Shown in pieces: positions 50,960 to 54,650 of a stretch of 64,000 bases of DNA. The position numbers and the translations under genes were made by a program. The DNA is from Listeria monocytogenes (GTDB lineage: Bacteria; Bacillota; Bacilli; Lactobacillales; Listeriaceae). Each line of letters opens with the position of its first letter. Within the stretch, counting starts at the first letter, position 1. The stretch covers positions 2,481,501 through 2,545,500 of the forward strand of contig NZ_LT906436.1 in assembly GCF_900187225.1 (NCBI RefSeq). The letters run 5' to 3'. Under the pieces are notes generated by a model. That model was given only the letters and a program-made list of their open reading frames with translations. It was not told the origin of the DNA and made no database searches.

Positions 50960-51018
50960 AAAAAAAGCAATTTCCGATAGTGAAGCGCTTCACTTATAGA
51001 AAACGTTCGGAAATTGCA
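50960..51018 (-). terminator. Terminator overlapping the 3' end of ywlE
   Basis: GCAATTTCCGA (inside the last codons of ywlE) pairs with TCGGAAATTGC beyond the stop, with an inner AAGTGAAGCGCTTCAC hairpin, followed by eight T's on the minus strand. One arm therefore encodes protein. Confidence 0.85.
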
Positions 51019-51401
51019 CTTTTTAGTTCGTAATAGGTAATTTCATATTGCTCAATTGATCCACCGTAAGGGTCTGGAATATCTGTTTTTTCTTCGGAAA
51101 TTAGTTGAATCTTATCATTCTCTTTCGGAAAAAGGCTTTTTAGTTCCGCTTGATGATTTTGAGTCATTACGTAAATTTGATCTGCCCAATCTATATCTGC
51201 TTCTGTGATTTTTTTAGCTTGATGCGTTGTTGGCAAATTCATCTGCGCGAGAATTTGACGTGAATTTCCAGAGATAGCGTCCCCGTTCAAAGCACGTGTC
51301 CCAGCTGAACGAACATCTAAATCTGGGCGCAAGTTTTGCAAGATTTTTTCAGCTAAAGGGCTTCGGCATGTATTTCCTGTACAAACAAATAAGACGTTCA
51401 T
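50994..51401 (-). CDS. ywlE: Low-molecular-weight phosphatase YwlE (probable protein-arginine phosphatase)
   Basis: 135 residues. The P-loop is VCTGNTCRSPLAE, Cys near residue 7 and Arg near 13, and the general-acid Asp is in DIPDPYGG near 107-114. Thr after Asn in the loop (CTGNT) is the B. subtilis YwlE feature that selects phosphoarginine; tyrosine phosphatases of this family have Ile there (CxGNI). It would oppose McsB arginine kinase. It overlaps sua5 by four bases. Confidence 0.88.
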   Translation of the reverse strand: MNVLFVCTGNTCRSPLAEKILQNLRPDLDVRSAGTRALNGDAISGNSRQILAQMNLPTTHQAKKITEADIDWADQIYVMTQNHQAELKSLFPKENDKIQLISEEKTDIPDPYGGSIEQYEITYYELKSAISERFL

Positions 51402-52435
51402 TCAGTAATCCTCCTATCACCAGCAGCTTTTTCTAATCGGTTCATAATCGCTGCTCCAAGTTCCATTTCTGGATACACTTCCGCAAAAATCATATCTACA
51501 TCGGCATGGTCGAAAGCCCGTAAACCTTTGTAAAGACTTGTAGCGATTTCGTCCAATGCCTTTATACTACCAGTTGTTTCGATGGTACCGCTGGTGTTTA
51601 GTTGATTTATCAGTTCTTTTGTCGCCAAAATACCGAGTTTTTTATTCGCAGCTTCCGCTTTATTTATTTCACTTTGCCAAAATTGGGTAGATCCTTCTAT
51701 TAGATAAACTGGCGCTTTCGGGGCATAGTGAGTATATTTCATGCCCGGAGCTTTTGGTTTTTCTGTTTCTTTCGTGTTGTTTGTCGATATATCCACAGGA
51801 CCAATTATTTGTTCAATCTGTTCTTTTGTAACACCGCCCGGGCGTAGAATAATTGGAATTTCTAATGAACAATCAATAACGGTGGATTCTAAACCTACAC
51901 CAGTTGCGCCGCCATCGATAATTCCGGCAATTTTTCCATCTAAATCTTCTATTACATGACTCGCCGTTGTCGGACTTGGTTTTCCTGAACGATTCGCGCT
52001 TGGAGCCGCAATAGGAATATTCGCTGTACCTATCAACGCTAGACTAACAGGGTGTTCCGGCATACGGACGCCTACTGTGGATAAACCAGCAGAAACATTA
52101 GTTGCCAAACTATCTTTTTTCAATGGAAGAATAACCGTTAACGGACCTGGCCAAAACTTTTCCATGAGTTGGATGGCTTTCGCTGGATAACTTGCTACAA
52201 ATTGATCCATTTGTTCACGACGGGCAATGTGGACAATTAATGGGTTATCAGACGGACGGCCTTTTGCTTCATATATTTTTTGAACAGCAGCTTGGTTGGT
52301 TGCGTCTGCGCCAAGACCGTACACTGTTTCAGTTGGAAAAGCCACGCATTCACCGCCTTGGAGTAATTTGGCCGCTTCCTGAAAGATAGCTTGATTTGAT
52401 TGTTGCTTATTTATGTTCCAATGAATGGTTTGCAT
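51398..52435 (-). CDS. ywlC: L-threonylcarbamoyladenylate synthase (Sua5/YwlC)
   Basis: 345 residues, long Sua5 type. The YrdC domain (about 14-205) has GGECVAFPTETVYGLGADA, KGRPSDNPLIVHIA and FWPGPLTVIL, plus SANRSGKPSPTTA. A C-terminal Sua5 domain (about 225-345; PGMKYTHYAPKAPVYLIEG) follows. It makes threonylcarbamoyl-AMP for the t6A37 modification of ANN-decoding tRNAs. It starts ATG, and the upstream 300 bases carry a DnaA-box cluster, as next to B. subtilis ywlC. Confidence 0.93.
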   Translation of the reverse strand: MQTIHWNINKQQSNQAIFQEAAKLLQGGECVAFPTETVYGLGADATNQAAVQKIYEAKGRPSDNPLIVHIARREQMDQFVASYPAKAIQLMEKFWPGPLTVILPLKKDSLATNVSAGLSTVGVRMPEHPVSLALIGTANIPIAAPSANRSGKPSPTTASHVIEDLDGKIAGIIDGGATGVGLESTVIDCSLEIPIILRPGGVTKEQIEQIIGPVDISTNNTKETEKPKAPGMKYTHYAPKAPVYLIEGSTQFWQSEINKAEAANKKLGILATKELINQLNTSGTIETTGSIKALDEIATSLYKGLRAFDHADVDMIFAEVYPEMELGAAIMNRLEKAAGDRRITE

Positions 52436-52541
52436 TAATTCCGGTCCCCTTTACATAACTTCTATTATATTTTAACGTTTTCTGTCTTATTTTTACAGTA
52501 TTGTTTTTTAAAATCTGGAAATCGCTATTTTTGAACAAAAG

Positions 52542-52916
52542 TTATCCCCAAACTGTGGATAATAACTTTGTCAATGGGGATAACTTCTTGTGAAATGTGG
52601 ATAATTCGTAAAGATAAGTAAAAAAGCCATTTTTTTATTAAGATTTGATTAAAAAAAATTTTTTGCACAACATTTTATCCACAGTTTTGTGGATAACTTC
52701 CAAAAGAAAAAGACGCTTCTTTTATAGAAACGCCTCTATACCAATATATTAGAGCATGTTACATAGCGGTCTTTGGAATTGATATCTTTGTGGATAACAA
52801 CAGTAGTATGTGGATAACTTTTTTCAAATAATTGTTTTACACGTTCACCTTGTGTATAACCTATCTCCACACCCACCCAAAATGAAGAATTTAGGACATA
52901 TTTTAAGTTATCCACA
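52542..52916. other. DnaA-box cluster
   Basis: Eight perfect TTATNCACA boxes on either strand: 52554-52562, 52596-52604, 52675-52683, 52688-52696, 52789-52797, 52809-52817, 52851-52859 (TTATACACA) and 52908-52916. One-mismatch boxes lie at 52542-52550 and 52575-52583. Four perfect boxes are intergenic and four lie inside the 3' end of prmC. An almost pure A/T stretch (about 52629-52664) separates the groups. B. subtilis has oriC-proximal DnaA-box clusters that titrate DnaA, one of them near ywlC, so this is probably its counterpart. Confidence 0.88.
52705..52737 (-). terminator. Terminator after prmC
   Basis: GGCGTTTC pairs with GAAGCGTC (G-U pairs included) around a seven-base loop on the minus strand, followed by TTTTTC. 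It lies inside the DnaA-box cluster. Confidence 0.8.
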
Positions 52917-53587
52917 AATCGCTCATAGATAGCAAGTCCATCATTTTCAGCAAACAATGCTAATGAAGGTTCGTTTTTTAGCACATAATCCGACATTTCT
53001 GCTTTTTCTGCTTCAGAAATATAGGGCGGATTGGCGACAATCATATCGAATCGTTCTTCGTTTTGTTTAAATGCTTCAAGTAAATCTGTTTCCACAAAAC
53101 GCACATCCGCATTTAATAACAACGCATTCTTTCTGGCCACTACAAGTGCTGGAGCGGAAATATCAGAAGCCGTCACTGAAATCTCAGGAAATGCTTTTTT
53201 GAGTGCAATCGCTATAATCCCGCTTCCAGTGCAAACATCTAGCACATTTTTAACTGGATGTTTTTTCAAAAAAGCTTCCGCACAAGCGACTAACTCTTCT
53301 GTTTCGGGGCGAGGAATAAGGACATCTTCTGTTACTAAAAAATCATAGCCATAAAAAGGGGCTGTTTTTAAAATATACTGGACCGGCTCGCCAGCCAAAT
53401 ACCTAGCAAAATCTTCCTCAAACTGCTTTTCATGATTCGGTTCAAGTTCACGACTTATTTCCATCCAAAGCTCAGAACGAGAAAGCCCCATTCTGGTTTC
53501 TAGTAAAATTTCCGCCGCATTTTGGTCCAGCCCTTTTTCAAAAAGGATGGCCTCCGCTTTTTTTAACAATTGACTAATTTGCGTCAT
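52736..53587 (-). CDS. prmC: Release factor glutamine methyltransferase PrmC (HemK)
   Basis: 283 residues. SAM-binding [20 protein letters not shown] near 115-134, and the catalytic NPPY in [14 protein letters not shown] near 182. It methylates the Gln of the GGQ motif in release factors RF1 and RF2, both encoded in this window. Its ATG lies inside the last codons of prfA (14-base overlap) with GGAG upstream, so it is translated with its substrate. Four DnaA boxes are within its last 60 codons. Confidence 0.95.
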
Positions 53588-54650
53588 TTAAATGCTCCAG
53601 TTTACTTGTTTGATCTTCTAGGATGAGCGCGTCAATGATTTCATCGAGTTTGCCTTCCATGATTTGATCTAGCTTTTGAATGGTTAAGCCGATACGGTGG
53701 TCGGTTACGCGGTTTTGCGGATAGTTATAAGTCCGGATACGTTCGGAGCGGTCACCCGTTCCAACAGCTGACTTACGGTTGGCATCGTATTCCTCGCGAG
53801 CCTCACGCTCAAATTTATCATAAACACGTGCGCGCAATACTTTCATCGCTTTATCTTTGTTTTTCAACTGAGAACGCTCATCTTGCATCGAAACGACAAT
53901 TCCGGTCGGAATATGCGTTAAACGTACAGCTGACATCGTTGTATTGACACTTTGTCCACCGGCACCAGTGGATGCGAATGTATCTGTACGGATATCTTTG
54001 TCATGCAACTCGATTTCCACTTCTTCCGCTTCTGGCAAAATGGCCACTGTCGCTGTTGATGTATGGATTCGACCACCTGATTCTGTTTCTGGTACACGTT
54101 GAACACGGTGCGCCCCGTTCTCATATTTCATTCGCGAAAAGGCGTCATTTCCGTTCATCATCGCAATAATTTCTTTGTAACCGCCAATACCAGTCGGGTT
54201 CGCGTCCATGATTTCTACTTTCCAGCCGCGTGATTCCGCATATTTACTGTACATGCGGAATAAATCGCCGGCAAATAAAGCTGCTTCATCTCCACCAGCT
54301 GCTCCGCGGATTTCTAAAATAACGTTTTTGTCATCATTAGGATCTTTTGGCACGAGTAATAGTTTTAGTCGTTCTTCTAAGTCTGCCTTTTCTTTTTGAA
54401 GTTCCGCGAATTCTTCTTTGGCCATTTCGCGCATTTCATCGTCTAGTTTTTCTCCTAGGAGTTCTTTTGTTTCGTTAATTTGTTCGTTTACATTTTTGTA
54501 TTCGCGGTACGTTTCGACTGTCGCGGTAATGCCGGATTGTTCTTTGGAAAGGTCGCGTAGTCGTTTTGGATCCGATACTACATCTGGATCACTTAATAAC
54601 TCATTTAGTTCATCATAACGGTCTTCCACCGCCTGTAATCGATCATACAT
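53574..54650 (-). CDS. prfA: Peptide chain release factor 1
   Basis: 358 residues. The GGQ catalytic motif is in [18 protein letters not shown] near 228-245 and the stop-codon reader [23 protein letters not shown] contains a PxT-like element near 187. It releases peptides at UAA and UAG. This is the housekeeping gene prfA; it must not be confused with the Listeria virulence regulator PrfA, which is a Crp-family protein elsewhere. It lies between tdk and prmC, as in B. subtilis. Confidence 0.97.

Follow-up and report, generated by a model that had tools for sequence, protein, structure and literature searches.

DnaA sites outside oriC that control replication in Gram-positive bacteria are known mainly from B. 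subtilis, whose ywlC and yydA genes we take to be sua5 and rlmH, respectively. In vitro, the region upstream of ywlC (nine sites, tabulated at 3,772,105) is among the eight regions of B. subtilis that DnaA binds most strongly, as are those of yydA (seven sites) and trmE (four sites) (PMC4447404), so the published record bears out the sequence-only reading of our locus where it mentions a DnaA-box cluster near ywlC. The activity of PywlC-lacZ drops as DnaA rises, that is, ywlC is repressed by DnaA in this species (PMC12112137). Deletion of six clusters leads to early initiation, the effect being strong only when all six are removed, and a single cluster partly relieves it (PMC5295017; PMC13220808). 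The review that reports this early initiation nevertheless assigns the B. subtilis clusters no significant role in initiation (PMC5295017), and ten-fold extra DnaA was found not to cause over-initiation (PMC13220808). The clusters have been called analogous to datA of E. coli in a review that also notes how prominent head-to-head boxes are in DARS (PMC5742627), while a review of 2026 presents B. subtilis as being without IHF, datA and DARS (PMC13220808). The DnaA protein of Listeria has been purified in other work (PMC8287927); a search of titles and abstracts, outside the coverage of which the key B. subtilis studies lay, returned no report of DnaA clusters outside oriC in Listeria.

The 64-kb window analysed here, a stretch of 64,000 nucleotides from Listeria monocytogenes, contains eight exact TTATNCACA boxes at 52554-52916 (363 bp), between sua5 and prmC. 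Compared through the published description, this cluster very probably corresponds to the ywlC cluster of B. subtilis. Both are found upstream of the sua5 orthologue, on the same arm and close to the origin, and the numbers of sites are alike (nine in B. subtilis, eight exact and three weak ones in Listeria). In Listeria, however, the other neighbour is prmC and four of the boxes lie within prmC codons; DnaA binding is known for the B. subtilis cluster, whereas the Listeria sites are predicted. The datA and DARS1/DARS2 loci of E. coli also consist of DnaA boxes clustered away from oriC and are tied to initiation; what distinguishes them, as far as the sequence of the Listeria cluster can tell, is that they act on the DnaA nucleotide with IHF and Fis. 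Three features expected of an extra-oriC cluster of the B. subtilis type were found, namely a box density beyond chance, a position upstream of ywlC/sua5 and nearness to oriC; as to those of a replication origin, the locus is not beside dnaA, and no DnaA-trios were noticed on unscored inspection by eye.

Conservation was followed in a close set of 14 genomes (PrmC at least 86% identical, the window's own included) and a distant set of 10 Listeria genomes (PrmC 58-67% identical). PrmC was found in 25/25 genomes of the genus; the position and codon counts exclude G016, whose odd box order was discounted because six runs of about 100 N interrupt the prmC-sua5 region (G016:C1:2493651-2497382), and the apparent rearrangement is therefore not taken as evidence. 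The features of the locus are as follows.

51398-52435, minus strand: sua5 (ywlC orthologue), L-threonylcarbamoyladenylate synthase (TIGR00057)
52076-52084, minus strand: single exact DnaA box in the sua5 body, outside the array; exact in 14/14 close genomes
52464-52469, minus strand: probable -10 element of sua5, TATAAT, from the alignment read by eye
52542-52550, plus strand: weak box TTATCCCCA, one mismatch; same 9-mer in 14/14 close and 7/10 distant Listeria, at most one mismatch in 24/24
52554-52562, minus strand: exact DnaA box; exact in 24/24 aligned Listeria genomes (14 close, 10/10 distant)
52575-52583, minus strand: weak box TTATCCCCA, one mismatch; at most one mismatch in 24/24 Listeria genomes
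52596-52604, minus strand: exact DnaA box; exact in 14/14 close and 3/10 distant, at most one mismatch in 10/10 distant
52661-52669, plus strand: weak box TTTTGCACA, one mismatch; same 9-mer in 14/14 close and 4/10 distant
52675-52683, plus strand: exact DnaA box, left half of the convergent pair; exact in 13/14 close and 10/10 distant, 23/24 overall
52688-52696, minus strand: exact DnaA box, right half of the convergent pair; exact in 14/14 close and 4/10 distant
52709-52737, minus strand: terminator-like hairpin after prmC; one found against 0.2 expected in shuffles
52736-53587, minus strand: prmC, release factor glutamine methyltransferase (TIGR03534), four boxes in its 3' end
52789-52797, minus strand: exact DnaA box within prmC; exact in 14/14 close and 4/10 distant
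52809-52817, minus strand: exact DnaA box within prmC; exact in 14/14 close and 0/10 distant
52851-52859, minus strand: exact DnaA box TTATACACA within prmC; exact in 14/14 close and 4/10 distant
52908-52916, plus strand: exact DnaA box within prmC, the least conserved of the array; exact in 9/14 close and 0/10 distant

All eight exact boxes counted in the sequence-only reading were located, and the coordinates and four-base spacing of its head-to-head pair (52675-52683 and 52688-52696), its AT-only segment (17 bp, 52648-52664) and its four perfect boxes in the prmC coding sequence (52789, 52809, 52851 and 52908, within 52736-53587) were reproduced; the one-mismatch boxes, which it gave as two, number three (52542 and 52661 on the plus strand, 52575 on the minus strand). 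The likely -10 element of sua5 reads TATAAT in 11 of the 14 close Listeria genomes and TATAGT in the other 3, and the ribosome site before the gene is invariant in 14/14 of them, again as read by eye. These two conserved elements indicate that sua5 is probably transcribed from its own promoter. The -10 call rests on the alignment because the promoter scan listed one plus-strand candidate and not the conserved TATAAT; no convincing -35 for sua5 was seen in the alignment of the close genomes. The boxes and the likely -10 do not overlap, the nearest weak box being about 70 bp upstream. A block TTTTTACAGTATTGTTTTTTA at 52490-52510 of the window, upstream of the -10, is near-invariant in the 14 close Listeria genomes and not in the distant ones. 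An RNA element at the locus was considered and rejected, no Rfam match reaching the gathering threshold in 51000-54000.

The assembly consists of a single 2,864,663-bp contig that begins at dnaA. It holds 171 exact boxes in its 2.86 Mb, against 120 occurrences of the pattern read in reverse, and the seat of the excess is the C form TTATCCACA, with 73 sites against 27 read backwards, 23 of the 73 falling at oriC, sua5, rlmH and trmE; the remaining three forms together give 98 against 93. There are 10 exact boxes in the window, where shuffles held 3.6 (sd 1.8) and none of 100 reached 10. When the 171 boxes were placed at random 20,000 times, the densest 375-bp stretch had at most 4 boxes, compared with the 8 observed here. 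Three clusters in the genome have at least four boxes in 500 bp: the one upstream of dnaA (8), the sua5/prmC cluster (8) and one at 314185-314617 (6). Only oriC thus matches the sua5/prmC density, the next cluster having 6 boxes in 433 bp, and both the earlier expectation that chance would give far fewer boxes and the genome-wide count it proposed as a check come out in its favour. An origin in chance or AT-rich composition could draw on the low G+C content of 52540-52735 (29%), but it is rejected by the shuffles, by the random placements and by 7,560 simulated sequences of dinucleotide make-up like that of the sua5 neighbourhoods, none of which had three boxes; with the boxes and their codons conserved across Listeria as well, we regard its probability as negligible.

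The cluster is genuine, and its conservation far exceeds what chance would give. The position and orientation of the boxes are kept across the alignment of the 24 Listeria genomes without gaps; seven of the eight exact boxes are exact in 13-14 of the 14 close genomes and two in at least 23 of 24, so the locus withstands the test of conservation in other Listeria by which the sequence-only reading could have failed. In columns 52538-52735 of the close genomes, 62 of 63 box positions are invariant vs 98 of 135 others. The convergent pair, with its 4-bp spacing, is exact in 13/14 close and 4/10 distant genomes. The suggestion that prmC codons are constrained by something besides the protein is upheld by a test on codons with an invariant amino acid, Met and Trp excluded: such codons with their third base in one of the three best-kept prmC boxes are unchanged in 8/8 cases (9/9 when all four boxes are counted), compared with 37/187 outside the boxes and 10/44 within the final 80 codons (Fisher tests, p 5e-6 and 1e-6, values that overstate independence because the genomes are related). 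The frozen prmC codons under the boxes are new to us, and they offer a case in which protein-binding sites limit codon choice in an adjacent translation gene.

The search for Sua5 spanned 148 order and 161 class genomes, and neighbourhoods were taken from 40 genomes of the order outside the genus and 69 of the class outside the order; 29 of the loci were the best-scoring ones of the search and the others were picked to cover families before their boxes were seen. Counting as a cluster at least three boxes within -500 to +150 of the start of the Sua5 match, we found one in 37/69 class genomes (23/29 best-scoring, 14/40 picked) and in 9/40 order genomes, 3 of them from the family of Listeria itself. 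At this cut 22 of the 46 sampled Bacilli families have the cluster beside sua5, and it is absent from 32/69 class and 31/40 order genomes. We also examined 80 named records, 30 of them classed as Bacilli by genus name and 50 others, the latter mostly Clostridia and Negativicutes, together with one Apilactobacillus and some assemblies of poor placement; a record labelled Roseburia (L244) was put among these 50 by hand. Thirteen of the 30 named Bacilli carry the cluster, including Litchfieldia, Cytobacillus, Lysinibacillus sphaericus, Brevibacillus and Virgibacillus halodenitrificans; it was found in 0/6 named Paenibacillus and 0/1 Exiguobacterium. Two or more boxes beside sua5 occurred in 0/50 of the mostly clostridial records and in 0/109 control windows at +300 to +950 of the same loci. 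From these counts the sua5-side cluster is common in Bacilli, if not universal; its extent across them was not found in the literature searched and is new to us. In a Peribacillus the genes run prmC, spoIIR, an acetyltransferase-like gene and sua5. To judge by this order, Listeria probably lost the genes between prmC and sua5, whereupon the boxes came to lie in prmC.

Sister sites were found at two more genes. The six-box cluster at 314185-314617 (L001:4686-5118) is situated between htrA and rlmH, and 25/25 Listeria genomes carry 5-9 exact boxes ahead of rlmH or of the genes that have inserted in front of it. Among the 29 best-scoring rlmH loci of the class outside the genus, the stretch from -700 to +100 has at least three boxes in 16 and at least two in 24; a control stretch had one box in 2/29. 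Upstream of trmE/mnmE there are three boxes at 2815914-2816279, including an abutting convergent pair (2815914-2815931; L313:3415-3432) that occurs upstream of this gene in 24/25 Listeria genomes, the exception being L335; the Listeria trmE site comprises 2-4 exact boxes. These sites agree with the yydA and trmE DnaA sites of B. subtilis in lying upstream of rlmH and trmE, but in Listeria the rlmH site is on the right arm and fewer boxes remain at trmE. Each of the genome's three extra-oriC box sites, upstream of sua5, rlmH and trmE, adjoins an RNA-modification gene. Another t6A gene is gcp. In B. subtilis, gcp also has a DnaA cluster nearby (PMC4447404).

Distances from dnaA were tabulated for 17 of the 36 genomes searched. 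The sua5/prmC locus of the genome analysed lies at -0.116 of chromosome length; in all 10 single-contig Listeria genomes the sua5/prmC site falls at -0.088 to -0.127 and the rlmH site at +0.105 to +0.118, on the other arm, a symmetry that is weak evidence of positional selection because gene order is conserved in the genus. In two other members of the family sua5 was found at +0.152 and +0.074, and in five class genomes at -0.058, -0.053, +0.142, -0.037 and -0.072, the site thus being on the opposite arm in some relatives (G101, G058 and G213).

The match to B. subtilis together with retention at the same gene implies that the cluster probably controls sua5, replication timing, or both. The reading that we favour, with a probability of roughly 0.6, combines the two effects: DnaA would assemble on the array, tune sua5 and restrain re-initiation. 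By the consensus and the B. subtilis precedent, DnaA would bind the strong boxes and then assemble cooperatively on the fixed strong and weak boxes upstream of sua5; the conserved weak TTATCCCCA boxes and their constant spacing point to an ordered complex more than to a simple sink. The linkage and the ywlC result suggest that such a complex may tune, and most likely repress, the sua5 promoter. The locus is copied early because it lies at about 11% of the chromosome from oriC; consequently, if the B. subtilis deletion result carries over, it would take up DnaA after initiation and lower the free DnaA, restraining re-initiation in concert with the rlmH cluster of the opposite arm. A density equal to that of oriC and boxes that stay in register in the 14 close and partly in the 10 distant genomes support this combined reading, as do the frozen prmC codons, the clusters beside sua5 in other Bacilli, the B. 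subtilis results and the steady distance from dnaA in Listeria. Against it stand the likely sua5 -10, which no box overlaps, the patchy occurrence of the cluster in Bacilli and the varying arm, as well as the six deletions required for a strong effect in B. subtilis, the doubts of the review about a role in initiation (PMC5295017) and the ten-fold DnaA experiment (PMC13220808).

Either effect might operate alone. Regulation of sua5 accounts for the linkage across Bacilli no less well than a sink that controls initiation, and an array through which DnaA regulates sua5, or prmC also, with no influence on initiation timing would explain why the cluster stays with sua5 in 22 of 46 families on either side of oriC, why weak boxes and spacing suggestive of an ordered complex are conserved, and why ywlC is DnaA-repressed in B. 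subtilis (PMC12112137). We nevertheless think it unlikely, since eight strong boxes over 360 bp, some about 480 bp from the start codon, exceed the needs of an operator and since deleting six clusters alters initiation in B. subtilis (PMC5295017). That same deletion result (PMC5295017), the number of boxes and their early-copied position are what one would expect if the boxes simply titrated DnaA and the neighbouring gene were incidental; a sink, however, predicts turnover of positions with the number kept, while here the positions, even of the weak TTATCCCCA boxes, are retained and the link with sua5 is old, which makes this the poorer account of the two. It is quite improbable that the convergent pair drives nucleotide exchange or hydrolysis on DnaA in the manner of E. 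coli DARS or datA: the prominence of head-to-head boxes in DARS (PMC5742627) and a 4-bp spacing exact in 13/14 close genomes speak for it, but the pair is exact in only 4/10 distant Listeria, and B. subtilis is described as lacking IHF, datA and DARS (2026 review, PMC13220808). Finally, DnaA occupancy of the Listeria sites is read from their sequence, which leaves room for another protein; the motif, however, is the consensus for DnaA in B. subtilis and in the genome's own oriC, and DnaA does bind the corresponding sites of B. subtilis (PMC4447404), so that we give this idea very little credence.

Since Listeria and many other Bacilli share clusters at these genes, the choice between a sink and a gene regulator becomes testable by comparison, and three loci, sua5, rlmH and trmE, can be named for work on the Listeria cell cycle. 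It is tempting, though doubtful, to extend the combined reading to an ancestral Bacilli DnaA regulon that might tie the RNA-modification genes sua5, rlmH and trmE to replication status, with ordered DnaA complexes, not mere sinks, adjusting translation-related genes while the origin region is copied; Listeria, although not a spore former, would have kept its core.

A scan of viral contigs for RlmH gave no relative and is uninformative. In five Listeria genomes the rlmH box cluster sits further upstream of rlmH, and in two of these (L159 and L160) three genes separate the two, which in L159:6921-11272 are a family 1 glycosidase, an antiterminator-like protein and a PTS permease. Just after rlmH in the genome analysed, L001:6132-9937 encodes a Recombinase-domain ORF (PF07508), an ORF without a Pfam match, and a type I restriction specificity protein and methylase, a gene content that suggests a mobile element at rlmH in this genome.
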